Under the pieces are notes generated by a model. That model was not told where the DNA came from and did no database searches. It worked only from the letters and a program-made list of their open reading frames with translations. Source: Brasilonema sp. UFV-L1 (GTDB taxonomy: Bacteria; Cyanobacteriota; Cyanobacteriia; Cyanobacteriales; Nostocaceae). Taken from it: a stretch of DNA of 41,043 nt. Positions within the stretch are counted from its first letter, which is position 1, and every line of letters begins with the position of its first letter. The position numbers and the translations under genes were made by a program. Positions 2,281 to 17,215 of this stretch are shown here, piece by piece. The stretch covers positions 1 to 41,043 of the forward strand of contig NZ_QMEA01000050.1 in assembly GCF_012912105.1 (NCBI RefSeq), given 5' to 3'.

Positions 2281-3156
2281 ATGAAGCTGAATACCCAATG
2301 GTTGATCGTGATTTTGAGTGCGAGTATTATTTTTGGAGAACTTTACGGCTGTACAACTAACACCAGCACTCTTGTGAAGAATAAGGAGATCGCAAATACC
2401 CAAGCACAACAAGAGATTATCATCGGTGGTCAAAGTAGCACTTATCCGACTATGAAAATACTAGCTGATGTCTACACAGCCAAAGTTAAAAACATTCCAG
2501 TGTCTTTCGTCCCACCGAATCAACTGAAAATTGCTATTGCTGCTGTTAAAGAAGGACTACTTGATATTTGTAGCATGAGTGAGGAACTTCCCTCAGAAGA
2601 AAATGATGGCACACTGGACTATCGAGTAGTCACTAAGGACGCCCTTTTACTAGCCACACATCCGAGTGTTGAAGGCATTACTAACTTGACAACAGCAAAT
2701 CTCAAAGCAATTTACAGTGGTGCTATGAAGAATTGGCAGCAAATAGGCGGTCCTGATGCCAAAATTATAGTACTAGACTTACCAGATAATGAGCCAGCTA
2801 AACGCCTTCTACGGAAATATTACCAAGGTAAGGATTTGAAAAATTCGCCGCAAGCAGTGATTTTGAAGGATGAGAAAGATATTATCACAGCGTTACAAAA
2901 CACACCTTATAGCATTGGTGCTTTCTCTTCAGGCTACGCTATTTCTCACCATCTAGCCGTCAACCTTCTTAGCTTAAATGGTGTAGAAGCCACTCCAGAA
3001 AATGTACAAAGTGGTCGGTATCAAATGGTACGTACTATACGTCTTGTCTCGAAAAAGACGACTTCTGAGGCTATTGAGGCTTTTATTAATTTTACTAATA
3101 GCAAACAAGCAGCTTTAGCACTGCGTAAGTCCGCTTTTGTGTCATCTACCTATTAG
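2281..3156 (+). CDS. PstS-like periplasmic substrate-binding lipoprotein
   Basis: A 291-residue protein with an N-terminal hydrophobic segment ending in LYGC, a lipobox with the predicted lipidated cysteine at residue 24. The rest resembles the PBP-like domain of phosphate-binding proteins: a first strand followed by QSSTYPTMK, an AVKEGLLDICSMSEEL segment, then a second lobe with LKAIYSGAMKNWQQIGG, typical of PstS-type proteins. It is shorter and more divergent than canonical PstS. No Pst permease genes are adjacent, so ligand and partner are unknown. It follows the CysQ-like gene by 26 bp and may be co-transcribed with it. Confidence 0.75.
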   Translation: MKLNTQWLIVILSASIIFGELYGCTTNTSTLVKNKEIANTQAQQEIIIGGQSSTYPTMKILADVYTAKVKNIPVSFVPPNQLKIAIAAVKEGLLDICSMSEELPSEENDGTLDYRVVTKDALLLATHPSVEGITNLTTANLKAIYSGAMKNWQQIGGPDAKIIVLDLPDNEPAKRLLRKYYQGKDLKNSPQAVILKDEKDIITALQNTPYSIGAFSSGYAISHHLAVNLLSLNGVEATPENVQSGRYQMVRTIRLVSKKTTSEAIEAFINFTNSKQAALALRKSAFVSSTY

Positions 3157-3276
3157 GGTATATGCGTTATTTAATTTTTGTCAACAACTCTATTTTTATG
3201 ATTTGAATTACTATATAATAAAAGTTTCCACTATTTGATGTCATTTGGGTGATCTACTATTTTAGGAGTGGAATTT

Positions 3277-3462
3277 ATGAAAAAAGAACATCGAGTAACA
3301 GTCGTCAATGAGCGACTCAGAAATATCATTTCAAGAGTAGAATCTGCGCCGAACACGAATCATCTCAAGTTACTTGAACCCTCTGCACCCATACAGATAT
3401 TGCCAAAAACAAGTACTTGTTCTGGTGAGGATGAGAATTCAGATGTCAAGCAATCCCACTAA
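3277..3462 (+). CDS. Small hypothetical protein
   Basis: A 61-residue ORF with no family I recognise. I chose the ATG at 3277 over the GTG at 3268 because a clear AGGAG ribosome-binding site at 3264-3268 sits 8 nt upstream of the ATG and overlaps the GTG. The protein is basic near the start (MKKEHRVTVVNERLR) and has no membrane segment. The good ribosome-binding site is the main evidence that it is real. It stands between the PstS-like gene and an ABC ATPase, both on the same strand. Confidence 0.5.
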   Translation: MKKEHRVTVVNERLRNIISRVESAPNTNHLKLLEPSAPIQILPKTSTCSGEDENSDVKQSH

Positions 3463-3577
3463 ATACTAGCAAACGCAATGGCAACTACCCAAATGCGCGC
3501 CCGGAAAATCTTGATCGCGTTTTCATCTGGCACAATAGTCACAACAAGCGATCAACTTCTCTGTTGCCAAACGACTC

Positions 3578-4429
3578 ATGAGTGTTGCTGTTCATCTAGA
3601 AAACGTCTACAAACTTTACAATAATATTCCTGTGGTGAATGACCTCTCATTCACTATAAATGCGGGAGAAATGTTTGGTTTACTTGGTCCGAATGGTGCG
3701 GGTAAATCTACTACAATTCGGATGTTAACCACACTCACGAAACCAACTCAGGGACAGATACACGTCTTTGAACATGATGTGGTGAGCCAACCCATACTAG
3801 CAAAACAATGTCTAGGTGTTGTGTTACAGCAAATTAGTGTTGATGACGATTTAACAGTATGGGAGAATATGGAGCTGCACGGAAGGCTACATCACATTGC
3901 CAATCCTGGGCGACAGAAACTGATTCATCAATGGCTAGAGTATGTTGAACTGGCAACCAGACGTGATAATTTGGTAAAAAGTCTGTCTGGGGGTATGAAG
4001 CGACGGTTACAGATAGCAAGAGCTTTGTTACATCAACCGCAAATTCTGTTTTTAGATGAACCAACAGTCGGACTAGATCCTCAAACAAGGCGACGTCTTT
4101 GGGAAATTATTCGAGATTTAAACAAGCAAGGGATGACAATGCTGCTGACGACTCATTATATGGATGAGGTCGAGTATTTGTGTCATCGCATTGGTATTAT
4201 GGATAGTGGTAAGTTAATTTCTCTTGGCACATTACAAGAATTACGCTCTGCTCATGGCGAGGGTTTAGTGATCAAGCAAGTGGGAGATCGTTGGGAATAT
4301 CTTTTTTTCCCAACTTTAGAAGATGCAAACTCTTACCTCAATCAACAACAAGATAAAACAGGAATGATGGTTCGTCCCTCTAACTTGGAAGATATTTTCG
4401 TAGAACTCACCGGACGCAAGTTGGACTAG
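3578..4429 (+). CDS. ABC transporter ATP-binding protein (ABC-2/DrrA type)
   Basis: A 283-residue ATPase with all nucleotide-binding motifs: Walker A GPNGAGKST at about residues 37-45, signature LSGGMKRRLQIA, Walker B ILFLDEPTVGLD, and the H-loop TTHYMDE. The C-terminal extension after residue 220 matches the accessory region of DrrA/NatA-like subunits, which pair with a separate ABC-2 permease for export of drugs, lipids or polysaccharides. No permease gene follows: the next gene is convergent, with its stop codon only 7 bp away. The partner must be encoded elsewhere, or this subunit is orphaned. Substrate unknown. Confidence 0.9.
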   Translation: MSVAVHLENVYKLYNNIPVVNDLSFTINAGEMFGLLGPNGAGKSTTIRMLTTLTKPTQGQIHVFEHDVVSQPILAKQCLGVVLQQISVDDDLTVWENMELHGRLHHIANPGRQKLIHQWLEYVELATRRDNLVKSLSGGMKRRLQIARALLHQPQILFLDEPTVGLDPQTRRRLWEIIRDLNKQGMTMLLTTHYMDEVEYLCHRIGIMDSGKLISLGTLQELRSAHGEGLVIKQVGDRWEYLFFPTLEDANSYLNQQQDKTGMMVRPSNLEDIFVELTGRKLD

Positions 4430-4436
4430 TCTTATC

Positions 4437-5177
4437 TTATCCTCTCAAAGTTCGTAGTAAGTCTTCTACTCTTCCGACGCTATCTTGCTTGCCTTGCTTT
4501 TCATACAAATCACGGGCTTGTTGAAACGCTGCGATCGCATCTTTTGATTTGCCCTGTTTCATTAAAATATTACCCCGCAATTCATAAACTTGGGGATTTT
4601 TAGGATCAAGACTGACAGCTTGTTCGTACGCCCATTTCACATTGTTGTTTTCTCCCAAACGCAACAGAACTGTCGCTAACCCTATATAGGCGTTGACGTT
4701 ACTGCGGTTAGCTTGTATTGCACGACGGTAAGCCTCTTTTGCTCCCTTATTATCTCCCAAATTACCACTGACGTAACCCAAAGCATACTGATAATCGCTA
4801 TTGTTAGGATTTAAAGCAACAGCACGACGGTAAGCCTGTAGTGCTGCGGAAAAATTCCCTTGTAAGGCGTAGAGGTAGCCAATACCTGAAGAAATCGTAG
4901 CGTTTTTTGGCTCCAGTGCAGCTGCTCTTTGATAGATGGCGATCGCTCCATTATAATCACCACTATCTACCAGCCTCCGCCCTTCCTCCAAAAGTCCTTT
5001 TAATTCCTGACTACTTTGTTGTGGTACTGCTTCTTGAGCCTGAGTAACTAAAGGCATTGTTACTACAAAGCTCCCTAATAGGAGAACACTTACTAGAAAT
5101 GATGTTCGATTGTACACAGTTAGTTCCCTGAAAGTTTCTGCAACTGTTTCCCACAATCTCCGTGGATGCTTGTCCAT
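4437..5177 (-). CDS. TPR-repeat protein with N-terminal membrane anchor or signal
   Basis: A 246-residue protein. A hydrophobic segment SFLVSVLLLGSFVVTMPLV at about residues 26-44 followed by TQAQEA looks like a signal peptide with an unusually long charged n-region, or a membrane anchor. From about residue 55 to the end there are five tetratricopeptide repeats with the usual A-Y-A-P pattern (for example AIAIYQRAAALEPKN and ALQAYRRAVALNPNN). TPR domains are protein-interaction scaffolds; the partner is unknown. The gene is convergent with the ABC ATPase gene. Confidence 0.85.
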   Translation of the reverse strand: MDKHPRRLWETVAETFRELTVYNRTSFLVSVLLLGSFVVTMPLVTQAQEAVPQQSSQELKGLLEEGRRLVDSGDYNGAIAIYQRAAALEPKNATISSGIGYLYALQGNFSAALQAYRRAVALNPNNSDYQYALGYVSGNLGDNKGAKEAYRRAIQANRSNVNAYIGLATVLLRLGENNNVKWAYEQAVSLDPKNPQVYELRGNILMKQGKSKDAIAAFQQARDLYEKQGKQDSVGRVEDLLRTLRG

Positions 5178-5719
5178 TAAAACAGATATATTTGATTTTG
5201 CAAACTCTGTTTGTTTACTTTTACAAAATATTTACGATAAATTTTCTTTATTTCTGGGAACTGATACTATTTTGGATTTTAGATTCTAGATTTTGAATTG
5301 TGAAAGTGTTACTAGTAATCGCTTTTAGCGCTCTATCTGTCGCAATCACTTTTCAAATTAGTATTACAATAATTTAACAGTTTTTCCTCAGAAAATCTGC
5401 TTCTCAATTATCTGCTTGATGTTTCAACGTCTACTCCCTTCGGTGCTAGAAGAAATACCTATTTGAATGAACCGCTTAGCAAGAGTGTGTCCCGTTCGCT
5501 TTGCGCGTGCCCGTAAGAACTCAGGGACATACACACAAAGTACACAAACAAACAAGAGAAGAAGAACGGTAATTTTATGGTGGTAAGAAAGTAATCTTTG
5601 GTTTGCCGCCCTCCAAGCGTCTACGTATCCTTTGTGATATGCGTGACGTACTCCCGAACGTTCAACAAAATCTTACAACTCAAATAGGATCGCTATAGTT
5701 GTGTTTTTGAGGCAAATCC
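5178..5719. other. Intergenic region with dispersed-repeat remnants
   Basis: I find no coding potential. Around 5480-5545 there is a segment with TGTGTCCC and, after a GC-rich loop, GGGACATACACA, which resembles a degraded small palindromic repeat. The upstream region of the TPR gene (5180-5300) is very AT-rich and probably holds its promoter, but I cannot assign -10/-35 boxes with confidence. Confidence 0.4.
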
Positions 5720-6046
5720 ATGATTTTAACTACGACTGATGTCATTCAAGGAGCTATCATTCAATCATATTCAGGCATTGTAACGGCAGAAGTTGTCTAC
5801 GGCAGTAATTTTTTACGAGATTTTTTTGCTAGCATCCGAGATATTATAGGTGGACGCACAGGCAGTTACGAACGCCTATTTGAAGAAGGTCAACGTAAAG
5901 CTTTAGAAGAATTAGAGCGGCGAGCATTACGTCTAGGGGCAGATGCTGTTGTCGGCATTGAAATCGATACTGGCACAATCAATGTTGACCAATCAGGTGT
6001 TCTCCTACTAATTACTGCTACAGGTACTGCTGTCAAACTACGTTAG
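5720..6046 (+). CDS. YbjQ/UPF0145 family protein
   Basis: A 108-residue protein that matches the heavy-metal-binding domain family (YbjQ, UPF0145). Evidence is the overall length and the pattern GxIIQSYSGIVTAEVVYG near the start, the central RDIIGGRTGSYERLFEEGQ segment, and the end with EELERRALRLGADAVVGIEID. Family members form homopentamers and lack a firmly established function. There is no signal peptide. The gene is followed at once by a perfect 15-bp inverted repeat that may act as its terminator. It stands alone in its transcription unit. Confidence 0.85.
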   Translation: MILTTTDVIQGAIIQSYSGIVTAEVVYGSNFLRDFFASIRDIIGGRTGSYERLFEEGQRKALEELERRALRLGADAVVGIEIDTGTINVDQSGVLLLITATGTAVKLR

Positions 6047-6060
6047 CAGTTAGCAGTTAT

Positions 6061-6091
6061 CAGTTATCAGTGAACAGTTCACTGATAACTG
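6061..6091 (+). terminator. Perfect 15-bp inverted repeat, likely terminator, built on heptamer repeats
   Basis: CAGTTATCAGTGAAC at 6061-6075 is followed after one base by its exact complement at 6077-6091, then TTTCG. It lies 14 bp past the stop of the YbjQ gene. The left arm is part of a run of GTTAGCA/GTTATCA heptamers starting near 6042, so it may be a short tandem repeat that has become a hairpin. The T-run is weak. Confidence 0.55.
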
Positions 6092-6416
6092 TTTCGATAT
6101 TGATGAAAGATAAGAATGATAAAATTTCATTGAAGGATTCAAGATATCGTTCAATTATAGTGAAATGAACCTGATTCTGATTGTGTCGTTTTGTGACTTT
6201 TCTTCTTTTATTTATTAATTTTGTTAAGCAATGAAAACTTCAGAAAAAGTCACAAAAATTTGTGAAAAATAACAGATTTTTTTTATGACTTAGGATAGAG
6301 TCATGAACTATTTCCGCTGATAGATATTAAAAACTATAATAGGCAATTTAATTTTAATCATTAGCATGAATAGTTGAAGAAAAAACTTTATTGGAGTGGA
6401 AAGGAAAAAGTAGTCT
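6092..6416. other. AT-rich intergenic region
   Basis: No ORF or structured RNA recognised. A GGAGTGGAAAGGA purine-rich segment at about 6392-6405 probably includes the ribosome-binding site of the downstream membrane-protein gene. Confidence 0.4.
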
Positions 6417-7049
6417 ATGTCATATACTAATCGAGCAGGAAATGAGGTGATTACCGACCCTGCAGTAGTAGCTAGAGTTACTGATTATCACGATCTCGTT
6501 CGTTGGGGTCCTATCATTTCTGGTTTGTTGATTGCCTTAGCAACTCAATTGGTTTTAAGCTCTATTTTTGCTGCAATAGGAGCAGGTAGCATTGAAGCTT
6601 CAGGTAGACCGAGAACAATTGCTCCAGATGTGGCTGGGAATATTGGTATTTGGTCAACCATTGCTTTATTGATTTCGCTATTTACTGGTGCTTGGGTTAT
6701 GGCTCGTGCTTGTGGTCCAATGAACCGCAATACAGCTCTTCTCAACGGCGCAATACTTTGGGCAACAACTTTGGCAGTCAGCTCTTGGTTACTAGCTAGT
6801 GGAGTATCTGGTGCTTTTGGTATTGCTGCTTCTAATGCTGGAGAAGTCATTAACCAGGTGCAACAGCAAGGAGGCGTTCCTGTACCAAGAAATACAACTA
6901 ACGTCAGTGCGCAAGAAGCTCGTCAAATTGCAGCAAATGTACGTTCAGGATTGTGGTGGTTTGTATTTGGTTCTTTGTTAGGTTTACTTGCTTCAATGGT
7001 TGGAGCTGCTACAGGAAGTCGCAGTCCACGCAATAATCATTACGTCTAA
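6417..7049 (+). CDS. Cyanobacterial multi-pass membrane protein, function unknown
   Basis: A 210-residue protein with four predicted membrane segments: about residues 31-56 (PIISGLLIALATQLVLSSIF), 77-95, 108-135 (GAILWATTLAVSSWLLASGV), and 180-200 (WWFVFGSLLGLLASMVGAAT). The loop before the last helix is polar and Q/N-rich. It resembles cyanobacterial proteins labelled PhnA-like or of unknown function, with a small-residue-rich helix pattern; I cannot name a reaction. A purine-rich ribosome-binding region precedes the ATG. It is monocistronic, with a convergent gene downstream. Confidence 0.75.
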   Translation: MSYTNRAGNEVITDPAVVARVTDYHDLVRWGPIISGLLIALATQLVLSSIFAAIGAGSIEASGRPRTIAPDVAGNIGIWSTIALLISLFTGAWVMARACGPMNRNTALLNGAILWATTLAVSSWLLASGVSGAFGIAASNAGEVINQVQQQGGVPVPRNTTNVSAQEARQIAANVRSGLWWFVFGSLLGLLASMVGAATGSRSPRNNHYV

Positions 7050-7203
7050 AAATTTGTCTAGATTGAATCCTGCATGATTCTCAACTCAGCCCATAGCTCA
7101 CCGAAAAATGAATTTCCGAACTCAGAGTTTAAGTATACTAATTGTGGACTGAAATTCTAAATAATCAGTATTGAGTCCTCTCAAGAGGACTCTTGCTATA
7201 AGC

Positions 7204-7576: not shown

Positions 7577-7735
7577 TCAAGGGCTGTGAGGGTTGACATG
7601 ACTCGATTGCGCTACGAGTTCTATATTTCCATTGCTATCAACTATCCAACCAGTAGCTTCCACAATTTGAGTTGTCGCAGCCGCAACTTTGGGAGTATTT
7701 GAGACTGCTGTTGGTTGTGGCGAAATTGTTGTTTT
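7577..7735 (-). pseudogene. C-terminal remnant of a filamentous-haemagglutinin-type (two-partner secretion) protein
   Basis: Read on the minus strand, the frame ending with the stop at 7577-7579 encodes TTISPQPTAVSNTPK, then ATTQIVEATGWIVDSNGNIE, then LVAQSSHVNPHSP. A conserved EAxGWIVDxNGNIELVAQ ending is characteristic of large cyanobacterial FHA-domain exoproteins. Only the last 50 codons or so remain, joined in a different frame to the TPR remnant at 7734. FHA exoproteins often neighbour CHAT/TPR genes in cyanobacteria, so a deletion fusing the two is plausible. Confidence 0.55.
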
Positions 7736-8470
7736 AAATCTCGGCTATATTTTTTTGATTACCAATTTTGCTTATGGTGCGAGCAAAGTTGATACGTGCA
7801 TAGATACCAACTTGAGTGGTAGGCACAGTTGCTAATTGAGATTGGATTGTGGGTATTAATGTTTGGGCTTCTGCTATTCGTTCATTCAAGGCAAGCAAGC
7901 TGAGTTGATTGATTTGGGCTTGAACTTTGGTGAGTGGGTTGGATGCAACTAAAGCTGCATTTTCATAATGAGTTATTGCGTCTTCTATTTTACCTAAAAC
8001 TCTAGCAGTATTACCAAGGGAAAATTCTGTTAAGCTAATTTCTAAAGGCAGTTGCAGACGTTGGGCAATTTCTAAGCTTTGTTGTAAGTTTTCTTTTGAT
8101 TGTTCTAAGTCACCTAATTGTTGCTGGGCATTACCGAGAGAGCGTAAAGCAGTCACTTTTTCAAGTGAGTCAGGTTGGGTTTGTAACTGTTGGGAGACTG
8201 TATTCAATAGACATCTCCAGAAATTAATAAGGAAATACCCCGTCCTTAAGGATGGGGTTTAGTCCCTATTATGCGTTACGTGAAACTCTTGTAGAGACCG
8301 TACAGTACTGTCTCTACATTGTTTTCCAACAGAGGTCTATTGTATTGTTTACCTAATCGCTTCCAAATTTGCTCTGCTTGCTGTGATGTTTTTAGAGAGA
8401 CATCTGCTTGTCCTTGTGACAGTTGCAGTCCGCCTTGAATCTCTAGAGTTTGTGCTAGAACTTCCAGCAA
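7734..8470 (-). pseudogene. Broken TPR gene (CHAT-type TPR protein remnant)
   Basis: Two minus-strand pieces, 8276-8470 and 7734-8207, both read as tetratricopeptide sequence of the kind found before CHAT protease domains (AQTLEIQGGLQLSQGQAD in the first; LRSLGNAQQQLGDLEQSKEN and KVQAQINQLSLLALNERI in the second). The link between them is replaced by a short foreign segment at about 8211-8340 containing a TGTAGAGAC...GTCTCTACA palindrome, with loss of the intervening repeats. There is no secretion signal, and the CHAT domain expected downstream is absent. Confidence 0.7.
8290..8318. repeat. Small palindromic repeat inside the TPR pseudogene
   Basis: TGTAGAGAC at 8290-8298 and GTCTCTACA at 8310-8318 form a 9-bp stem with an 11-nt loop. 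The same TTGTAGAGAC core recurs at 15535 and 16798, so this is one of the dispersed palindromic repeats of this genome. A second hairpin, CCCCGTCCTTAAGGATGGGG, lies just upstream at about 8238-8257. Confidence 0.6.
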
Positions 8471-8870: not shown

Positions 8871-9407
8871 ATGAAAAAAATTTTAGTGATAGATGATAAA
8901 CCTGAAAGTAAAAAACACTTAATTAAATGCTTAGAGGCAGCAGGTTTTGAAGTAATTTGCACAGGCAATCATTTTTTTAATGTTCAGCTAGGACAGGAGA
9001 AGTTGTCTACAGATGAGGAATGTGAAAAATCGAATACTCCTCAGTCTAGATTTCCATCAATTCCTCAACTACATGAAGTTTTCGAGTTTATTGAATTGAA
9101 CTATCATCAAAGTATTAGCCTCAAACAAGTCGCTCAAGCAGTTGGTTATTCGTCAGCTTACTTAACCAACTTGGTACGAAATCTTACTGGAAAAACGGTA
9201 AATGATTGGATTATTGAGCGTCGGATAGCCGAAGCATGCACCTTACTTTTATCAACTAACGACTCTGTTAATCAGATTGCTTTACAAGTAGGCTATAAAA
9301 ACATCAATCATTTTTACTCTCAGTTTCGCAAGTACCATAAAAATACTCCCCATGCTTGGAGAAAAGCACAGCGTTGTCAAGTCAGTCAGAACAAAATATA
9401 TAAGTAA
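8871..9407 (+). CDS. AraC-type transcription regulator with truncated receiver domain
   Basis: A 178-residue protein. Residues 1-32 (MKKILVIDDKPESKKHLIKC...GFEVICTG) match the first strand, acidic pocket and first helix of a response-regulator receiver domain, but the rest of the domain, including the phospho-acceptor aspartate, is absent. Residues 65-165 form an AraC/XylS DNA-binding domain with both helix-turn-helix units (ISLKQVAQAVGYSSAYLTNL and VNQIALQVGYKNINHFYSQF). It should bind DNA but cannot be regulated by normal phosphorylation. No obvious kinase partner is adjacent. A hairpin at 9488-9523 may be the terminator. Confidence 0.85.
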   Translation: MKKILVIDDKPESKKHLIKCLEAAGFEVICTGNHFFNVQLGQEKLSTDEECEKSNTPQSRFPSIPQLHEVFEFIELNYHQSISLKQVAQAVGYSSAYLTNLVRNLTGKTVNDWIIERRIAEACTLLLSTNDSVNQIALQVGYKNINHFYSQFRKYHKNTPHAWRKAQRCQVSQNKIYK

Positions 9408-10058: not shown

Positions 10059-10583
10059 ATGGCAACCTACACAATCGAAGCAAATCTGGAACAATTTACT
10101 GAAGCAGATGGTGAGAGTTTGGAATTCAGTACGGAAGACTTGGAAGGTCTAGAAGCTGAGTCGATGGAAAGCACCAGCTTGGAAGATGTCAAGCCTGAGA
10201 GCGTAGCTGAGTCGCTAGAGGGTTTGATGGAGGGAGCGGAAGGAGCGGAAGCATATGGCTCCCGCCGCAGTCCTAGCAGTTCTGTGAACAAGCAGTTGCT
10301 CAAGACCTTCACAACTATTGTTAAGACATTGGTGAAGAAAATCATGAGCAACCCCAGAACTCGTACCAAATTGCAAGCGGCCATTCGCAAAGGTCCAACT
10401 GCGGTCGCCCAACTAATTACACCCAGCGTGGCTAAGGTATTACCTAGCTATTTCCGCTGGATGGCTCCTATTTACGTTCCTCCGGTTACTCGCGTCCTGT
10501 TTAGCCCTATCCGCAAACAGGCTGGGGTCAAAGCAGAGCAAGTTGAAGCAGCGCCTGAGTGGAATGGTTTTGGCAACTTCTAA
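10059..10583 (+). CDS. Leader-cationic tail protein, paralogue 1
   Basis: A 174-residue protein of no family I can name. Residues 1-66 are a strongly acidic leader (EQFTEADGESLEF, then TEDLEGLEAESME, then SLEDVKPESVAESLEGLMEG) homologous to the leaders of the RNase and CAP genes downstream. From residue 68 the charge flips: NKQLLKTFTTIVKTLVKKIM, then NPRTRTKLQAA, a helix with many lysines and arginines, and a hydrophobic segment YFRWMAPIYVPPVTRVLF. This suggests a membrane-active or bacteriocin-like mature part held by an acidic pro-region, but that is inference. There is no Sec signal. A good AAGGAG site precedes the ATG. Confidence 0.8.
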   Translation: MATYTIEANLEQFTEADGESLEFSTEDLEGLEAESMESTSLEDVKPESVAESLEGLMEGAEGAEAYGSRRSPSSSVNKQLLKTFTTIVKTLVKKIMSNPRTRTKLQAAIRKGPTAVAQLITPSVAKVLPSYFRWMAPIYVPPVTRVLFSPIRKQAGVKAEQVEAAPEWNGFGNF

Positions 10584-10716
10584 GGCTCAGGACGAGGGAT
10601 AAAAAAGGGTAATTAAAACGCCTTGCCGATTAAGGCTTCAGTTAGACTTAACACCGTCTGCACTACTCTACCTCAACTACCCTTTTGAAGAGAGGGAAGC
10701 ATCTTTCCCTCAATAC

Positions 10717-10754
10717 GGGCAACAGAACTAGAAGGTTTTTAGCTCTGTTGCCCG
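10717..10754 (+). terminator. Hairpin between leader-protein genes 1 and 2
   Basis: CGGGCAACAGA at 10717-10727 pairs with TCTGTTGCCCG at 10744-10754 (11 bp, perfect), followed by TTTCC. It lies 134 bp after gene 1 and before gene 2 and could terminate or attenuate transcription. Confidence 0.6.
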
Positions 10755-10863
10755 TTTCCTAGAAACTATCATCACTGAATTTTCTGTTCAACAAAGAATG
10801 ACATTTCGTTGTGTCAGTCCCAAATTAACCTGCAAAAAACTTAACTGAAAAAAGGAAACAATT

Positions 10864-11478
10864 ATGGCAACATACACAATTGAAGCAGATCTAGAACAAT
10901 TTACTGAAGCAGATGCTGAGAGTTTGGAATTCGCGACGGAAGACTTGGAAGGTCTTGAAGCTGAGTCGATGGAGAGCATCAGCTTGGAAGATGTCAAGCC
11001 TGAAAGCGTCGCCGAATCACTGGAGAGTTTGATGGAGGGAGCGGAAGGAGCAGAAGCAAATGGTTATAGGAATGGCTATACCCGCCGTAGTCCTAGCAGT
11101 TCTGTAAACAAGCAGTTGCTGAAGACCTTCACAATTATCGTCAAGAAATTGGTGAAGAAAATCATGAGCAACCCTAGAACTCGTACCAAACTGCAAGCCG
11201 CCACTCGCCAAGGTCCAACTGCGGTCGCCCGACTGCTTACGCCCAGCGTGGCTAAGGTGTTGCCCAGTTATTTCCGCTGGATGGCTCCTATCTACGTCCC
11301 TTTGGTGACTGTTGCCCTGTTCGTTCCCATTTGCAAACAGGTCGGGGTCAAAGTAGAAGAAGTAAAAGAATTAGAAGCAGCTAAAAAACGGCGCTTCCCC
11401 AAACCTACATCGGATCGCGTCAATAATCTCTTGACGGCTATTGATATAGGTACCAAATTTTTGCCTGGGCAAAAGTAA
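10864..11478 (+). CDS. Leader-cationic tail protein, paralogue 2
   Basis: A 204-residue paralogue of the gene at 10059. The leader (residues 1-66, EQFTEADAESLEFATEDLEG and onwards) and the cationic middle (NKQLLKTFTIIVKKLVKKIM) are nearly identical, as is the hydrophobic YFRWMAPIYVP segment. The C-terminus is longer and different: after residue 160 it carries a basic AKKRRFPKPTSDRVNNLL extension ending in FLPGQK, so the paralogues diverge mainly at the end. An insertion NGYRNGYTRR lies at the leader/tail junction, where a protease cut would be expected. A ribosome-binding site AAAAGGAAAC precedes the ATG. Confidence 0.8.
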   Translation: MATYTIEADLEQFTEADAESLEFATEDLEGLEAESMESISLEDVKPESVAESLESLMEGAEGAEANGYRNGYTRRSPSSSVNKQLLKTFTIIVKKLVKKIMSNPRTRTKLQAATRQGPTAVARLLTPSVAKVLPSYFRWMAPIYVPLVTVALFVPICKQVGVKVEEVKELEAAKKRRFPKPTSDRVNNLLTAIDIGTKFLPGQK

Positions 11479-11532
11479 TCAGCCCGATCGCAACTGAATT
11501 CTCCCTGACATAGCCGCTTCATTAATCCTTTC

Positions 11533-11700
11533 CAAAATTGGACAACCTATTGCCTAACGGCAACGCTACGAATCGGGCGAAAAAGGCGGTTTTTTATGTC
11601 AACAAGTAAAAATAATTGAGAATAACCGCCTTTTTCGCCCCCTCCACGAGTACTTGTGAAGCCTCCACGAGTACTCGTGGGGGAAGGTTGTCCAATTTTG
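11533..11700. mobile_element. Nested palindromic element between leader-protein genes 2 and 3
   Basis: The outer inverted repeats are 16 bp and perfect: CAAAATTGGACAACCT at 11533-11548 and its complement at 11685-11700. Inside lies a second perfect 17-bp inverted repeat, GGGCGAAAAAGGCGGTT at 11575-11591 against 11624-11640, and a third small palindrome CACGAGTACTCGTG at 11666-11679. It has no coding capacity. It could be a MITE or a strongly structured transcript between two paralogues. Confidence 0.75.
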
Positions 11701-11831
11701 TCTAAGTTTCCCCAAGCCCTCAAGAGGCAGGAGCTCCAGGGAGCCGCTTTTTTCTAATGATAAACAGGATGAGTCAACAGCTTCCTAAACTTGACTTGTC
11801 ACAAATCCTCAATTTCTCAAAGGAGACAATC

Positions 11832-12413
11832 ATGGCAACATACACAATCGAAGCAGATCTAGAACAATTTACTGAAGCAGATGCTGAGAGCCTGGAATTC
11901 ATGACCGAAGACATGGAAGGTCTTGAAGCTGAGTCAATGGAGAGCACCAGCTTGGAAGATGTCAAGCCTGAGAGCGTAGCCGAATCGCTGGAGGGTTTGA
12001 TGGAGGGAGCGGAAGGAGCAGAAGCAAATGGCTATGGGAATGGCTATACCCGCCCCAATCCTAGCAGTTATGTGAACAAGCAGTTGCTGAAGACCTTCAC
12101 AATTATCATCAAGAAATTGGTGAAGAAAATCATGAGCAACTCTAGAACTCGTATCAAATTGCAAGCTGCCACTCGCAAAGGTCCAACTGCGGTTGCTCAA
12201 CTGATTACACCCAGCGTGGCTAAGGTATTGCCAACGTATTTCCGCTGGATGGCTCCTATTTACGTCCCTCCGGTTACTCTTGCCCTGTTCTACCCCATTT
12301 GCCAACAGGTCGGAGTCAAAGCAGAGGAAGTTGAAGCACAGCCAGAATTTCTTCCTTTGTTGTTGAGTTTTCTTTCAACAATACCATCGCTTATCCCTCG
12401 TCGTCAAAAATGA
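11832..12413 (+). CDS. Leader-cationic tail protein, paralogue 3
   Basis: A 193-residue third paralogue. I start it at 11832, not at the upstream in-frame ATG at 11757, because the paralogues begin MATYTIEA and an AAAGGAG ribosome-binding site at 11818-11824 is placed correctly for this ATG. The acidic leader and the cationic and hydrophobic tail are as in paralogues 1 and 2 (YVNKQLLKTFTIIIKKLVKK, TYFRWMAPIYVPPVTLALF). The C-terminus again differs, ending in a hydrophobic FLPLLLSFLSTIPSLIP. A cluster of three suggests gene amplification with selection on the terminal segment. Confidence 0.8.
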   Translation: MATYTIEADLEQFTEADAESLEFMTEDMEGLEAESMESTSLEDVKPESVAESLEGLMEGAEGAEANGYGNGYTRPNPSSYVNKQLLKTFTIIIKKLVKKIMSNSRTRIKLQAATRKGPTAVAQLITPSVAKVLPTYFRWMAPIYVPPVTLALFYPICQQVGVKAEEVEAQPEFLPLLLSFLSTIPSLIPRRQK

Positions 12414-12433
12414 GGTTTGACTCACTCTACGCC

Positions 12434-12488
12434 AGCCCTCGCCTTGCTTGAAACAAACTAATTGCCTTCCCTGAAGGAGGCGAGGGCT
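12434..12488 (+). terminator. Inverted repeat after the third leader-protein gene
   Basis: AGCCCTCGCC at 12434-12443 pairs exactly with GGCGAGGGCT at 12479-12488; the loop is 35 nt. No T-run follows, so a terminator role is only possible. It lies in the 177-bp gap before the protease gene. Confidence 0.4.
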
Positions 12489-12590
12489 GACGACTGAGTG
12501 CATTGCATCCGCCCTCCGATTCCTCTCCCGATCTAGGAAGTTGGAGGCTGAGATCTGATTTTCTTTCATCAATACAAGAAGTAAAACCCT

Positions 12591-14291
12591 ATGAGTTTAG
12601 ATGATTTTTACTTAACAGGTGAGCAACTCGATAGCGCTTCAAACAAAGTCCGCGACCAGTGGGGAGCCGAGATTGACGACAAACTTGAAAATCTCTTAGA
12701 GTATCAGATCCTGGCTGAAGAAGGCGCAATTGAGTCTACTGAGCGCCAACGGGTGATTATTCATTATAAACCAACTAAGTCGTTCGACAATTGCCTGAAC
12801 GAGTTCGAGGACTTGGAGGACTCATATCAGAAACGCGGAGAAGACGTTGAATTCCAAGTGTTCGATGAATTTGAAAGCTTAGCAAATGAATCGATTGAGT
12901 CACTCTTGGAAGAGTTGCCAAACGCAGAGACTGGGGAACATTTAAGGTTGGGGAATGCTGTCGTTGCAAACCTCACCCCTGCCCAGATTAAACAAATTGC
13001 TAGTCGTAGTGATGTAGAACAAATAGAATTTGATAAGCCACTGAACTTGGAACTCGACCAGAGTGCTACAGCCGTGGGTGTGGTTGATGCTAGAATCCAA
13101 GGACTGGTTGGCACAGGCAAAGGCGTGATCATTGCTGTTCTAGATGGAGAAGTTGATATTAACCATCCTGACCTCAAGGGTCGTGTAGTTCACAAGCGGA
13201 ACTACACCAACGAAGAGTGGGGCAATCCTCATCCCCATGGAACTCATGTGGCGGGCATCATTGCAGGTAACGGCTCCAAGTACAAAGGCATGGCACCGGG
13301 GGCAATAATCTGGAACTATAAAATTTTCCCTACTCAACCTGGAGAATCGACCGAATCGAGGGGTGCTGATGCGATTGAAGATGTCGTAAAGGATATGCAG
13401 CAAGAGAAACGATTACGGATTGCTAACTGTAGTTGGGGATCGCCCAGCCCAACACTTGATGGCAATAGCGTTGTTTCCGAAACCGCTGAACGAGCGACGA
13501 AAATAGGCTTAGTGCTAGTGAAAAGCGCAGGCAATGATGGTACTAAAAGACCTGGACCCGGAAGCATTACTCTCCCGGCAGATGCCAGAGGTGATGTGAT
13601 TGTGGTAGGAGCGTCTAACCGTGATAGTACAAAGGTCATGCCTTTTAGCAGCCGGGGTCCAACGAGCGACGGGCGACCCAAGCCGGATATCTTGGCTCCT
13701 GGTGAATTGATTACGTCTGCCAAGCCTGGTGGCAGCTATCGGAGGGAGTCGGGTACCAGTATGGCATCTCCCCATATTGCCGGGATAGCTGCCTTGATTT
13801 TGGAGCGTTATCCAAAGCTTCAACCTATGCAGGTCAAGAGAATTCTGATGCAATCTGCCAAGAAACTGGCTTCTTCTGAGTTCGATGAAAATGCCCAAGG
13901 GGTAGGATTGGTGGATGCCGTTAAAGCGTTGCAGATTGCAGGACAACCGCTTGCAGAAGCAGAGAAGGTGACGCCTAGACCATCGGTTAAAGAATGGAAA
14001 CTGCTGGAGCAGGTCAACATTGCCGTGCGAAATACGGGGGATGAAACAATGCAAGCCGTGAAAGCGAGCTTAGTTGGACCATTAGGTATTAAAGTGACGA
14101 GTGCCGAACAAGACTATGGCACGTTGCGAGTCGGTGCAGAGACAACCCGCGACTTTGGAATTGAAGTGCCTTCAAAGTTCAAGTCGCCTCAATACAAGCT
14201 GACTTTAAACCTCAATTTCACGACACCAAGTGGCAAGAAGAAGACTTGCTCTTACAAGCTAACGCATCAAGTTCCCAGTCTTCGGCGCTAG
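12591..14291 (+). CDS. Subtilisin-like serine protease (S8 family)
   Basis: A 566-residue protease. The catalytic triad is Asp185 (AVLDGEVDINHPD), His216 (HPHGTHVAGIIAG) and Ser390 (SGTSMASPHIAG), with the oxyanion Asn315 in KSAGNDG. Residues 1-158 form an acidic N-terminal region whose second part (GNAVVANLTPAQIKQIASRS) resembles an I9-type inhibitory propeptide. Residues 465-560 look like a beta-sandwich (VNIAVRNTGDETMQAVKASL). There is no Sec signal, unusual for a subtilase, so it may act inside the cell or be exported by another route. Its position inside the leader-protein cluster suggests that it cuts the acidic leaders from their cargo; this is inference. Confidence 0.9.
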   Translation: MSLDDFYLTGEQLDSASNKVRDQWGAEIDDKLENLLEYQILAEEGAIESTERQRVIIHYKPTKSFDNCLNEFEDLEDSYQKRGEDVEFQVFDEFESLANESIESLLEELPNAETGEHLRLGNAVVANLTPAQIKQIASRSDVEQIEFDKPLNLELDQSATAVGVVDARIQGLVGTGKGVIIAVLDGEVDINHPDLKGRVVHKRNYTNEEWGNPHPHGTHVAGIIAGNGSKYKGMAPGAIIWNYKIFPTQPGESTESRGADAIEDVVKDMQQEKRLRIANCSWGSPSPTLDGNSVVSETAERATKIGLVLVKSAGNDGTKRPGPGSITLPADARGDVIVVGASNRDSTKVMPFSSRGPTSDGRPKPDILAPGELITSAKPGGSYRRESGTSMASPHIAGIAALILERYPKLQPMQVKRILMQSAKKLASSEFDENAQGVGLVDAVKALQIAGQPLAEAEKVTPRPSVKEWKLLEQVNIAVRNTGDETMQAVKASLVGPLGIKVTSAEQDYGTLRVGAETTRDFGIEVPSKFKSPQYKLTLNLNFTTPSGKKKTCSYKLTHQVPSLRR

Positions 14292-14340
14292 AACGTTGTG
14301 TCAGCAGAACGAAAACTTAACAAGGAGGTTCAAATTCAAA

Positions 14341-14733
14341 ATGAACATCAGTTTCACCACTATTGCACGGGGTAATGATAGTGGTTATCAAAGCGCCAGT
14401 CAAATAATGGTGATTAATAACTCAGAGCAATGGATCGATCTTTGGCAACAGCACACCTATAATACTGAACCACCGCCACCCGTTCCTCAAGTGGATTTTA
14501 CCCGTTACAGCGTAGTTGCTGTCTTTGCTGGAGAGAAGCCGACTGGCGGTTACTCGGTTGAGATTCTGAGTGTTGAAACCAGTGGTTCCCAAACTCAGAA
14601 GCAACTCGCGATTACCGTTCAGCAACGCCAGCCTGGAGCTGGAGATTTCGTGACAGAGGCGCTTACCTACCCATATCACATGATTAGGATTCCTAAAATT
14701 GATGCAAACAGGGTCGTCTTTAAAGACATTTAA
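14341..14733 (+). CDS. PrcB-domain protein
   Basis: A 130-residue protein starting at 14341, placed by the AAGGAGG ribosome-binding site at 14322-14328; the longer TTG-start reading is less likely. Residues 57-130 match the PrcB C-terminal domain (YSVVAVFAGEKPTGGYSVEI, then ITVQQRQPGAGDFVTEALTY, then PYHMIRI). In Treponema denticola PrcB belongs to the subtilisin-like dentilisin complex and helps PrcA/PrtP, so a position 50 bp after a subtilase gene is striking. It may be a chaperone, inhibitor or cofactor of the protease. A truncated second copy lies at 15595-15762. Confidence 0.8.
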   Translation: MNISFTTIARGNDSGYQSASQIMVINNSEQWIDLWQQHTYNTEPPPPVPQVDFTRYSVVAVFAGEKPTGGYSVEILSVETSGSQTQKQLAITVQQRQPGAGDFVTEALTYPYHMIRIPKIDANRVVFKDI

Positions 14734-15009
14734 CGAGAGCGCGTCGTTCGCAAGGGCATCACCGTCACCTGATCCCAATTTAATACACATCAACAATATG
14801 AGCAAAAATCATGAAAGCACAGATAGTCGAACAAGTTGAGCTTTTTTCCGAAGCAGAACTCCAGAGCCTAGAGTTCGTGCCAGAGGAATTAGAAGCCATT
14901 GAAGCAGAGCGCGTTCCTGATTTGGAAAGTATATCTTTTGAGGATATTGCTGAAGACTTGGAAGCTTACTTCAAGGGAGGCGTTGAAGAGGCTGCGTTAG
15001 AAAGCCGTG
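14572..15009. repeat. Duplicated segment, copy 1: end of prcB + spacer + leader
   Basis: This stretch is repeated, nearly gap-free, at 15598-16037 (offset about 1,027 bp). It spans the last 54 codons of the PrcB-domain gene, the spacer with CATCAACA, and the first 66 or so codons of the RNase gene. Similarity stops sharply where the RNase domain begins. Confidence 0.9.
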
Positions 15010-15314
15010 GCGGCAGGCGTGGCGGCAAGGGCAAACCTAGTCCAGCTGAACGAAATCAAATCAGAGATATCAAAGACAATATTACAAACGGTAGACTTGG
15101 TGGCAGAGTATATAACAATGCAGGAGGTCATGGGGGTACTCGATTAACTCCCGCTCGAAAGGGGCAGGAATATCGAGAGTACGATCTTGGTCAAGCTAAT
15201 GATGGTTCGCGTGGCAAGCACCGTCTCGTTGTATTGATCGGTTCAGACAGAAGATCCGTCGAAAAAATGTATTACACCAACAATCATTACACTTCCTTTA
15301 CTCCAATCAGGTAA
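14811..15314 (+). CDS. Leader-fused ribonuclease of the barnase/RNase Sa (N1/T1) family
   Basis: A 167-residue protein. Residues 1-66 are the acidic leader (FSEAELQSLEFVPEELEAIE, then SISFEDIAEDLEAYFKGG). After a glycine/arginine-rich linker (SRGGRRGGKGK) residues 78-167 match microbial guanyl-preferring ribonucleases: Glu123 in EYREYDL, Arg138 in KHRLVVL and His159 in YYTNNHYTSFTPIR correspond to barnase Glu73, Arg87 and His102, so the active site is intact. No Sec signal is present and no barstar-like inhibitor gene is found nearby. Cytoplasmic RNase activity would be toxic, so the leader or a partner must restrain it, or the protein is loaded into a delivery system. Confidence 0.85.
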   Translation: MKAQIVEQVELFSEAELQSLEFVPEELEAIEAERVPDLESISFEDIAEDLEAYFKGGVEEAALESRGGRRGGKGKPSPAERNQIRDIKDNITNGRLGGRVYNNAGGHGGTRLTPARKGQEYREYDLGQANDGSRGKHRLVVLIGSDRRSVEKMYYTNNHYTSFTPIR

Positions 15315-15594
15315 AATCAGCGTATTTACAGCTATTTTCAGTTAATTAAACTACAGATTTTCGTAGTGCGATCGCCTGATCTTGTAGGTTGGGTTAAGGC
15401 ACGAAACTCAACAAACCAACTATCGTCTTATATGGCGGTGGATTGTAGAGAAATCAAATTGTAACTTAATGTTGGGTTTCGTGATCGCGAAACCCAACCA
15501 ACACAAAAGAGCGATCGCTAATCTTGTAGAGACAGTCTTAAAAGTCAAGCGAAAGCGAGTGTAGGACGGGGAGCAAGATGCTCCCACTACCATC
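15315..15594. other. Spacer after the RNase gene, with dispersed repeats
   Basis: No ORF of barstar type or any other convincing gene. It contains a palindrome GTTGGGTTTCG / CGAAACCCAAC at 15471-15481 and 15488-15498, three GCGATCGC-type sites, and a TTGTAGAGACAGTCTTAAAAG unit near 15533 that is the same repeat as in the array at 16771-17215. Confidence 0.55.
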
Positions 15595-15762
15595 TTTGTG
15601 GAAACCAGTGGCTCCCAAACTCAGGAGCAACCGGCGATCGCGATTACCGTTCAGTATCGCCAGCCTAAAGCTGGAGACTTGGTGACAGAGGCGCTTACCT
15701 ATCCGTATCACATGATTAGGATTGCCAAAATTGATGGCAAGGTCGTCCTTAAACACATTTAA
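15595..15762 (+). pseudogene. Truncated second copy of the PrcB-domain gene
   Basis: From 15598 the sequence encodes VETSGSQTQEQPAIAITVQ, then TEALTYPYHMIRIAKIDG, and a stop at 15760-15762. It aligns with the last 54 codons of the intact gene at 14341 and keeps the reading frame, with some substitutions. The 5' part is missing and replaced by repeat sequence. It marks the upstream edge of the duplication that carries the leader of the CAP gene. Confidence 0.85.
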
Positions 15763-16037
15763 CCAAGCACGTCGTTTGCAAGGGCATCACCGTCATCCGA
15801 TCCCAATTCAATACACATCAACAACATGAGCAAAAATCATGAAAGCACAGATAGTCGAACAAGTTGAGGCTTTTTCAGAAGCAGAACTCGAGAGCCTAGA
15901 GTTCGTGCCAGAGGAATTAGAAGCCATTGAAGCAGAGCGAGTTCCCGACTTGGACAGTATATCTTTCGAGGAAGTAGCCAAAGACCTGGAAGCTTATTTC
16001 GAGGGAGGTGTTGAAGGAGCTGGGTTGGAGGCACGGC
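15598..16037. repeat. Duplicated segment, copy 2: end of prcB + spacer + leader
   Basis: The second copy of 14572-15009. The spacer and the leader-coding part are very similar at the DNA level, starting with the identical MKAQIVEQVE. After codon 66 the similarity ends and the CAP domain replaces the RNase domain. Confidence 0.9.
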
Positions 16038-16504
16038 GTCGGCCAGGTCGGCCGGTGAGGCCAGCAACGGCCCAATCGAGACTCAACATTCAAGAGATTT
16101 TAGCAGCTCATAATAAGTATCGATCAGAGGTAGGTGTTCCTCCCCTCAAATGGTCAGACACTTTGGCTAGAAGCGCTCAGCAATGGGCAAATCGACTGGC
16201 TTCAAGAGGTTCAGGTCTTCAACATAGTAGGTCTGGAGAGAACCTCTGGAGCGGAAGACCCTCAGGACGTTTTTCCTACACGCAGATGATAAATAGTTGG
16301 GGTAATGAAAAGAAATATTTTGTCAACCGTCCTAGCCCCAATTTCTCCACTACTGGTAAATTCGGAGATGTCGGTCACTACACCCAAATAGTTTGGAGAA
16401 ACACGACAGAAGTAGGTTGCGCTTTGGCTAGTCGTCATGGACAAGATTATTTAGTTTGTCACTACAATCCAGCGGGGAATGTTTCGGGGCAAAAAGTTTT
16501 TTGA
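15839..16504 (+). CDS. Leader-fused CAP (SCP/PR-1) domain protein
   Basis: A 221-residue protein. Residues 1-66 repeat the acidic leader of the RNase gene with few changes. After a basic linker (ARRRPGRPVRP) residues 82-221 form a CAP domain: HNKYRSEVGVPPLKW, then LQHSRSGENLW, GHYTQIVWRNTTEVGCA (CAP1) and YLVCHYNPAGN (CAP2). The usual cavity residues are present: His129, Glu134, Glu157 and His180. CAP proteins are normally secreted and bind lipids or act on other cells, yet no Sec signal exists here, again implying that the leader has a delivery or holding role. Confidence 0.9.
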   Translation: MKAQIVEQVEAFSEAELESLEFVPEELEAIEAERVPDLDSISFEEVAKDLEAYFEGGVEGAGLEARRRPGRPVRPATAQSRLNIQEILAAHNKYRSEVGVPPLKWSDTLARSAQQWANRLASRGSGLQHSRSGENLWSGRPSGRFSYTQMINSWGNEKKYFVNRPSPNFSTTGKFGDVGHYTQIVWRNTTEVGCALASRHGQDYLVCHYNPAGNVSGQKVF

Positions 16505-16690: not shown

Positions 16691-17215
16691 ATAGCGTTTG
16701 CGTAGCGCCCCCTATGCCTATGTCCTGCGGACACGCTCCGCTAACGGCACGGCTTCGCCTATCGGGGCTAGCGCTGCTGCAAGCAGATCGCATGATCTTG
16801 TAGAGACAGTCTTAAAAGGAATGCGAAAGCGAGTGTAGGAAGGATGATGAGCGTGCGATGTCTGCTCTTACAGTGCGATAGCGAAGCGCTGCTGCAAGCA
16901 GATCGCGCTTTCTTGTAGGGACTGTGTTAAAAGTCAAGCGAAAGCGAGTGTAGGACGGTTGATGAGCGTGCGATGTATGTTCTCAAGAGTGCGATAGCGA
17001 AGCGCTGCTGCAAGCAGATCGCGCTTTCTTGTAGCGACAGTCTTAAAAGTCAAGCGAAAGCGAGTGTATGATAGTTGATGAGCGTACGATGTCTGTTCGT
17101 CCAAGTGCGAGCGCTAATTTTGCCGAGATTATCTTAAAAGTCAGGCGAAAGCGAGTGTAGGAAGGTTGATGAGCGTGCGATGTCTGTTCGTCCAAGGGCG
17201 CTCGCTTTATATCAT
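16690..17215. repeat. Tandem array of about 115-bp units
   Basis: Units start with GCGCTGCTGCAAGCAGATCG at 16771, 16886 and 17002, with shortened units from 17111 to 17215. Each contains TTGTAGxGACxGTCTTAAAAG, then CGAAAGCGAGTGTAGGA and GATGAGCGTGCGATGT. The spacing is 115, 116 and 109 bp. A single unit piece lies at 15533-15575. The array is preceded (16690-16770) by a GCGTAGCGCCCCCTATG-type dispersed repeat. It is not a CRISPR array because the parts between repeats are also repeated. Confidence 0.85.

Follow-up and report, generated by a model that had tools for sequence, protein, structure and literature searches.

What can a single short acidic leader be doing at the front of five neighbouring genes whose remaining parts have so little in common, and why do a subtilase and a PrcB-family protein lie among them? 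The genes in question lie in a 41,043-nucleotide stretch of Brasilonema sp. UFV-L1 (contig NZ_QMEA01000050.1 of assembly GCF_012912105.1), which we call the window. They run in the order AraC-family regulator, three leader genes of one kind (A-type), S8 subtilase, PrcB, and two leader genes of a second kind (K-type), in which the leader precedes a ribonuclease (RNase) and a CAP domain, respectively. We describe them as a rare, patchily distributed cyanobacterial cassette that looks like a new way of keeping toxins harmless until they are cut, and we regard it as an even call whether this is a conflict cassette that functions as polymorphic toxin systems do, on a small scale and with zymogens as its toxins.

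All genes listed in an earlier note on this DNA were confirmed at their coordinates. That inventory was right as far as it went; the AraC regulator and a remnant of PrcB also belong to the cluster, which comprises the following features:

8871–9407, + strand: AraC-family regulator with a short receiver-like N terminus (PF12833, E = 3e-22)
10059–10583, + strand: A-type leader protein 1; acidic leader 10059–10253, cationic helical domain 10260–10547, short tail
10864–11478, + strand: A-type leader protein 2, with a longer C-terminal tail
11832–12413, + strand: A-type leader protein 3, with a hydrophobic C-terminal tail and basic residues at its end
12591–14291, + strand: S8 subtilase (PF00082, E = 2.4e-59), no Sec-like start
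14341–14733, + strand: PrcB-family protein (PF14343, PrcB_C, E = 1.1e-19), no Sec-like start seen by hydropathy
14571–15001, + strand: duplicated block, copy 1 (PrcB 3′ end, spacer and K leader), 87.2% identical to copy 2
14811–15314, + strand: K-type leader protein 1; leader 14811–15005, Gly/Arg linker, barnase-like RNase at about 15048–15308
15595–15759, + strand: remnant of the PrcB C terminus, 5′ of the CAP gene (profile match E = 5.4e-20, positions 76–131 of 131)
15597–16029, + strand: duplicated block, copy 2, ending at the leader/cargo junction (from repeats D3–D5 and DNA alignment)
15839–16504, + strand: K-type leader protein 2; leader 15839–16033, Arg/Pro linker, CAP domain at about 16100–16465

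The leader is about 60 residues long and common to five genes of the window, and no further leader gene was found in the window's genome. A-type leaders start MATYTIEA and K-type leaders MKAQIVEQ; compared with the first A-type leader, the other two A-type leaders are 89–90% identical and the K-type leaders 39–43%. Every pair of leaders (10/10) scored above each of 1,000 composition-preserving shuffles, with z values of 34–37 within the groups and 10.1–10.9 between A- and K-type leaders. Because all pairs outscore shuffles of the same composition, we conclude that their likeness reflects homology and not common acidity: there are five genes with one acidic leader, as had been claimed, and their leaders align better than random acidic sequence, A-versus-K pairs included. 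The leader is under purifying selection, with a dN/dS (ratio of amino-acid-changing to silent substitution) of 0.10–0.35 in ten comparisons. None of the leaders scanned was matched significantly by Pfam, NCBIfam, PHROGs or PADLOC, and no known N-terminal trafficking domain appeared among their Pfam, NCBIfam and PHROG matches. As the earlier note had proposed, there is no sign of Sec targeting: judged by hydropathy, a Sec-like hydrophobic stretch is absent from the first 50 residues of 27 leader proteins and of the S8 and PrcB proteins of the window.

A leader profile finds further loci in which different cargo stands beside the same protease pair. We found nine distinct loci, all cyanobacterial: the Brasilonema window (G000); L009 in Tolypothrix campylonemoides VB511288; L010 in Nostoc favosum; L011 in a Richelia metagenome-assembled genome; L012 in Nostoc sp. 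FACHB-152; L013 in G040, which belongs to a family other than the window's; L014 on plasmid pn1 of Nostoc sp. UHCC 0926; L016 on a plasmid of Tolypothrix sp. PCC 7712, counted together with very similar copies in PCC 7601 (L015) and NIES-3275 (L017); and L063 on a short contig of G743. S8, PrcB and at least one K-type gene are present in 9/9 loci (in L063 the end of S8, at the contig edge), and A-type genes were seen in 8/9, the ninth contig being too short to show them. The genes typically run from AraC through one to three A-type genes, S8 and PrcB to one or two K-type genes, with a second A-type gene after the K genes in L011; no gene separates S8 from PrcB in the window. The AraC gene is found in six of the seven loci with enough flank, upstream except in L011, where it is downstream and reversed (DNA match in L009, L010, L011, L012 and L016 and none in L014; the flanks of L013 and L063 are insufficient). 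Leader, S8 and PrcB are constant across the loci and the K-type tails differ. Side observations in two loci concern the leader genes themselves. A further leader gene in L011 (10642–11414) seems to continue in another frame and is apparently split, its second piece having no Pfam match, and a truncated leader gene in L063 (980–1114), between PrcB and an intact leader–RNase gene, is likely a dead cassette.

The cassette is rare. The earlier note had looked to many genomes for support, and this expectation failed: the leader occurs in 8/217 genomes of the family, in 0/6 of the same-genus genomes listed, in 2/291 genomes drawn from the class (five-row profile) and in 2/388 from the order, where four partial, marginal matches (E = 0.004–0.009) were not counted as carriers; nor were two matches to the A-type domain in the class search (E = 5e-4 and E = 0.0095). 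In a pattern-based scan of one genome per species (84,980 species), four loci were confirmed, each in a cyanobacterium; the scan was not exhaustive, as it gave fewer loci than the other searches together. Where the leader does occur, the protease pair accompanies it. PrcB relatives at E ≤ 1e-50 are present in exactly the eight leader carriers among the 217 family genomes (Fisher p = 9e-15, with up to 19 candidates scored per genome), and two further genomes have weak matches near E = 4e-7. Among 72,556 plasmid records, leader, S8 (E ≤ 1e-60) and close PrcB (>60% identity) coincide in the same four; two other records have distant PrcB matches, and three of those bearing the cassette are predicted to be mobilizable. 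PrcB alone is not exclusive, since 12/291 class genomes contain a PrcB match at E ≤ 1e-4 and ten of the twelve lack the leader, G149 having the best match of these ten (E = 3.5e-36). A phage origin was rejected, as none of the viral-contig pattern matches for the leader and the A-type domain (191 and 48) was confirmed.

The charge of the leader is opposed by that of whatever follows it. With a fixed cut at residue 60 in 27 full proteins (L063, L015 and L017 were left out), the first 60 residues carry −12 to −21 and the remainder +7 to +21 in 27/27, and the two nearly cancel (sum −8 to +4). A threshold of ≤ −10 for the first part and ≥ +8 for the remainder is passed by 26/27 leader proteins compared with 0/101 other open reading frames. 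These controls were mechanical ATG frames of at least 140 residues from both strands of nine sequences, some of them not genes, from which frames with an acidic leader-like start had been removed beforehand; a first part of ≤ −10 occurs in 6/101. The junction after the leader is rich in Arg and often in Gly.

The cargo carried behind K-type leaders varies. In the window, the RNase cargo matches Pfam Ribonuclease (PF00545, E = 2.3e-8) and aligns with barnase and binase across the catalytic Glu, Arg and His, with weak phmmer matches (E = 0.3–1); the residues and the C-terminal strand expected of a barnase-type RNase are in place. The CAP cargo matches PF00188 (E = 1.2e-25), and Pfam thus upholds both domains as first read from the translations. 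Barnase-like RNase is found in four lineages (the window, L016, L012 and G743), the L012 copy ending early without the part that holds the catalytic His; CAP is K-type cargo in the window. The L013 cargo contains an F-box-like region that is suggestive only (E = 1.3e-4; 22.0 bits against a cut-off of 24.3). L009 has a Cys-rich tail of about 50 residues and a second, basic cargo of about 120 residues with no convincing Pfam match, and the K-type cargo of L009, L010, L011 and L014 gave nothing convincing in Pfam: L014 matches DUF7645 at 17.7 bits (cut-off 27) and L010 one PHROG of unknown function (E = 2.5e-5). Searches of solved structures with two unassigned cargos were empty, as was a search in plasmids. 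Beyond the cassette family, the RNase has relatives on plasmids (E = 6e-4, 37–39% identity), annotated as RHS or RHS-core proteins in four records and as a hemagglutinin-repeat protein in one. The match in the latter stops three bases before the gene end, the layout of polymorphic toxins.

The sequences show that the C-terminal domains are exchanged by recombination. The two copies of the duplicated block of the window (87.2% identity over 437 aligned positions) lead into unrelated tails, RNase after copy 1 and CAP after copy 2, and the PrcB remnant before the CAP gene is the scar of block copying. The arrangement recurs in L009, divided into two pieces (96.9% over 225 and 86.6% over 201 positions), its PrcB remnant containing an internal stop. 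The main DNA similarity between the window and L009, L014 and L013 stops at about leader residues 59, 69 and 64, respectively, in stretches that begin at the third A gene for L014 and at the S8 gene for L013. Between the window and L016, silent divergence (dS) of the RNase is 0.18, compared with 0.97 for its own leader, 1.04 for PrcB and 1.64 for S8 (Fisher p = 2e-4, 1e-6 and 1e-13). L012 groups with L016 by leader, PrcB and the C-terminal part of S8 (identity 0.88, 0.79 and 0.94), whereas by RNase it groups with the window (0.73 versus 0.58), with a bootstrap of 0.98 over 60 columns, using the shortened L012 RNase up to its point of departure, against 0.00 for leader, PrcB and S8. Because these groupings conflict, we conclude that the leader has descended together with the protease rather than with the cargo. 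An overlapping reading frame as the reason for the low silent divergence of the RNase was rejected, since the other frames of the window copy contain stops. The duplicated block, dS and the conflicting groupings together bear out the proposal of exchangeable C termini linked to the protease and PrcB. Many overlapping BLAST pieces at 16777–17210 of the window, 3′ of the CAP gene, suggest an intergenic repeat, which also lies beside the cassettes of L009 and L014 and may aid recombination.

The two constant partners have recognizable families, as first described: Pfam confirms an S8 peptidase (PF00082) and a PrcB_C domain amid the leader genes. The subtilase consists of an acidic N-terminal region of about 150 residues, the catalytic domain and a C-terminal region weakly like NPCBM_assoc (22.3 bits, under the cut-off of 24.4). 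Its residues D185, H216 and S390, presumably the catalytic triad, are invariant in 8/8 aligned homologues. It matches the NCBIfam models of mycosin, PatA and QhpE, all under cut-off, and in PADLOC a subtilase model (E = 1.5e-55) and IetS models (best E = 2.7e-17). PrcB matches denti_PrcB of NCBIfam at E = 2.3e-18, with 66.7 bits against a cut-off of 125. The PrcB-family protein of G149 mentioned above (L051:7307–9487; E = 3.5e-36 to the window-based profile) adjoins a small carboxypeptidase-regulatory-like protein and a trypsin-like protease (PF13365, E = 5.1e-9; long acidic N terminus), possibly the same PrcB–protease logic with another protease family.

The A-type proteins had been described as three cationic/hydrophobic tails. 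Cationic they are; in the window they contain more than a tail, namely one conserved domain of about 95 residues. AlphaFold2 places four helices within residues 72–154 of A-type protein 1 (block pLDDT 83–89 over residues 81–160). The domain has no sequence match in the PDB, no usable fold match and a weak match to Nif11 in one protein only (E = 0.0049), and across the 72,556 plasmids it is found in the four cassette records besides one chance-level Fusobacterium match (E = 0.3). Because one A-type protein of L011 bears a CAP domain behind it, the A-domain can itself act as a carrier module. Membrane action is our guess, from the modelled four-helix cationic domain and the hydrophobic–basic tails of some copies.

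A zymogen is the simplest joint reading of these data, because the leader precedes unrelated cargo, travels with S8 and PrcB, opposes the charge of the cargo and ends in an Arg/Gly junction. Toxin-like domains would be made as pro-proteins in which the leader masks the cationic cargo in cis and replaces a separate immunity protein. S8, held or matured by PrcB, would cut the Gly/Arg-rich junction after the leader and free the cargo, and the A-type proteins would probably be membrane-active partners released by the same route. New weapons would arise when the segment comprising the PrcB 3′ end and the leader is copied and a foreign C-terminal domain joined behind it. Activation could take place outside the producer, inside a target or when the producer is dying. 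We found no barstar in the window genome, in G647 or in the Tolypothrix-type plasmid records W01 and W02; across the eight genomes or records searched, a single barstar turned up, in G521, which carries a different cargo. The earlier note offered a loading, export or inhibition signal; the sequence does not decide between these, and the charge balance together with the missing barstar favours inhibition or masking. A bolder form of the idea, which we hold tentatively and with somewhat less assurance than the conflict cassette as such, is that interchangeable cationic toxins all carry their own antidote in the form of a single short, all-purpose acidic pro-domain, which a dedicated subtilase–PrcB complex removes; this would be an undescribed class of toxin system, able to adopt new toxins without new immunity genes.

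Several points weigh against this reading. We infer masking, cleavage by S8, the roles of PrcB and the A-type proteins, toxicity and use against neighbours. Leader and remainder charges correlate only weakly over the 27 proteins (r = −0.42), and barnase-like domains are often basic anyway, so that the charge pattern may in part have arisen by coincidence. The AlphaFold2 model of the leader without cargo is of low confidence (block pLDDT 37–75). Neither CAP nor F-box-like domains count among the classical bacterial toxins, and although amino-acid changes outnumber silent ones in the RNase, the excess falls short of significance (p = 0.09). The absence of barstar is strong for the window genome only, G647, the other RNase-bearing whole genome searched, having a shortened copy with no catalytic-His part, and an immunity protein of another family could exist. 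Finally, gene lists inspected by eye, with no profile search, showed no exporter common to the loci.

Some of these points suit an intracellular suicide or defence system, in which pro-toxins, S8 and PrcB are all cytosolic and infection or plasmid loss activates the protease, which frees the RNase and membrane-active A-type proteins and so kills the producer. The lack of a Sec-like start in the parts examined and of barstar in G000, the three mobilizable plasmid records and the PADLOC matches of S8 are all in keeping with it, as are leaderless lysozyme genes in three distinct loci. We nevertheless consider it unlikely: cargo that is exchanged and so varied, with CAP and F-box-like domains included, is better suited to attack on others, the PADLOC matches could come from any generic subtilase, the A-type, RNase and CAP proteins have no convincing PADLOC match (best E = 0.0028), and no conserved sensor gene was seen besides the AraC regulator. 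The lysozyme genes are of phage type (PF00959) and lie downstream of a K-type gene (L016:13480–14091, L010:10259–10999 and L014:13201–14739). The L014 lysozyme has a YkuD domain fused to it; those of L010 and L016 each follow a small gene that is L,D-transpeptidase-like by eye, the L010 one without a Pfam match.

Improbable to a similar degree is that the leader is not an inhibitor but a sorting signal for an export route, with S8–PrcB trimming it during or after export. Subtilases trim the leaders of some peptides and of QhpC, and the same leader on unrelated cargo, the Gly/Arg junctions and the sub-threshold matches of S8 to mycosin, PatA and QhpE all fit. Sorting does not need such extreme acidity matched by cationic cargo, however, and no transporter common to the loci was seen in the gene lists, again by eye and with no profile search. 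We give still less weight to a system for development or envelope remodelling that involves no toxins and in which the enzymes have a pro-region in common by chance: the CAP domain and the lysozyme and YkuD-domain neighbours would fit, but the patchy presence (8/217), the plasmid location in several strains, the exchange of cargo and an RNase with polymorphic-toxin relatives speak against it.

That the proteins are cargo of an extracellular contractile injection system, with the leader as loading signal, was also proposed earlier and is now very improbable. N-terminal loading signals are known in such systems (PMC11297309), and a phage sheath (PF04984, E ≤ 0.001) is found in 157/217 family genomes; it is, however, no commoner in carriers (6/8) than in non-carriers (151/209; p = 1.0). 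In a separate check three of seven carriers (G040, G644 and G645) had no sheath match, and the Pfam matches of the proteins searched included neither DUF4157 nor another PVC domain. Weakest of all, and rejected on the leader sequences, with no search for C39 genes in the carriers, is the idea that these are double-glycine leaders which a C39 peptidase-transporter exports and cleaves: Gly-Gly or Gly-Ala does stand near the end of several leaders, but the motif is not conserved, K-type leaders having GG, GN, GY, GD, RG or AG at that place and the A-type rows that reach it GA, GE and GV among others.

Three observations concern the surroundings of the cassettes. On the Nostoc plasmid, the L014 cassette is preceded (2659–7197) by a gene for a two-partner-secretion exoprotein (TPS domain, E = 4.1e-54) and by a TPR gene of CHAT-like appearance, judged by eye. 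The window has only a TPR-like fragment (7734–8207), in a stretch matching this TPR gene. In G040, open reading frames beside the cassette (L013:6857–10081) resemble, by eye, plasmid partition and relaxase genes, which fits a mobile setting.

If the zymogen reading is true, toxin repertoires could diversify without a co-inherited immunity gene, a generic electrostatic pro-domain serving any cationic cargo; several unannotated cargo domains would become candidate toxins, and a role for PrcB-family proteins outside oral treponemes would be suggested. The presence of cassettes in cultured Tolypothrix sp. PCC 7601 and PCC 7712 makes the idea directly testable. We recognized no description of this cassette in the open-access literature searched, most of it at listing level. 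QhpE, the cyanobactin proteases PatA/PatG and LanP are subtilases encoded beside leader-bearing substrates, in which removal of the leader completes the product; their cargos are modified peptides or one enzyme subunit, whereas those of the cassette are different folded domains. In amphibian antimicrobial peptides and eosinophil major basic protein, an acidic pro-region balances the cationic toxic part until it is cut. The cassette leader resembles these pro-pieces in setting an acidic part against a cationic one; the eukaryotic proteins are secreted through the endoplasmic reticulum and have one kind of cargo per pro-piece.

The pairing of a subtilase gene with that of a PrcB-family protein recalls the dentilisin complex PrtP–PrcA–PrcB of Treponema denticola (PMC8167434). 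There, PrtP protein was undetected in a non-polar prcB deletion, so PrcB may stabilize or mature the cassette S8. Dentilisin has a PrcA subunit and lipidated, exported subunits; the S8 and PrcB of the cassette have no Sec-like start by hydropathy and, in the window, no gene between them, their partners are leader–cargo proteins, and their NCBIfam scores are far under the dentilisin cut-offs (66.7 versus 125 and 57.4 versus 300 bits). In polymorphic toxin systems (Zhang et al. 2012, PMC3482391), Tox-Barnase is paired with Imm-Barstar, and PrcB is not mentioned in the part of the text considered here. The cassette differs from those systems in that a very short acidic leader replaces the listed trafficking domains, S8 and PrcB are separate genes and the window genome has no barstar; because neither a cognate immunity gene nor a known trafficking domain was found, we do not file it as a classical member. 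It shares with them a constant N terminus, exchangeable C-terminal domains that include Tox-Barnase, recombination at a fixed junction and a processing protease. The resemblance drawn at the outset thus stands, carried by the variable toxin-like cargo, its exchange, and the relatives of the RNase in RHS and hemagglutinin-repeat proteins.

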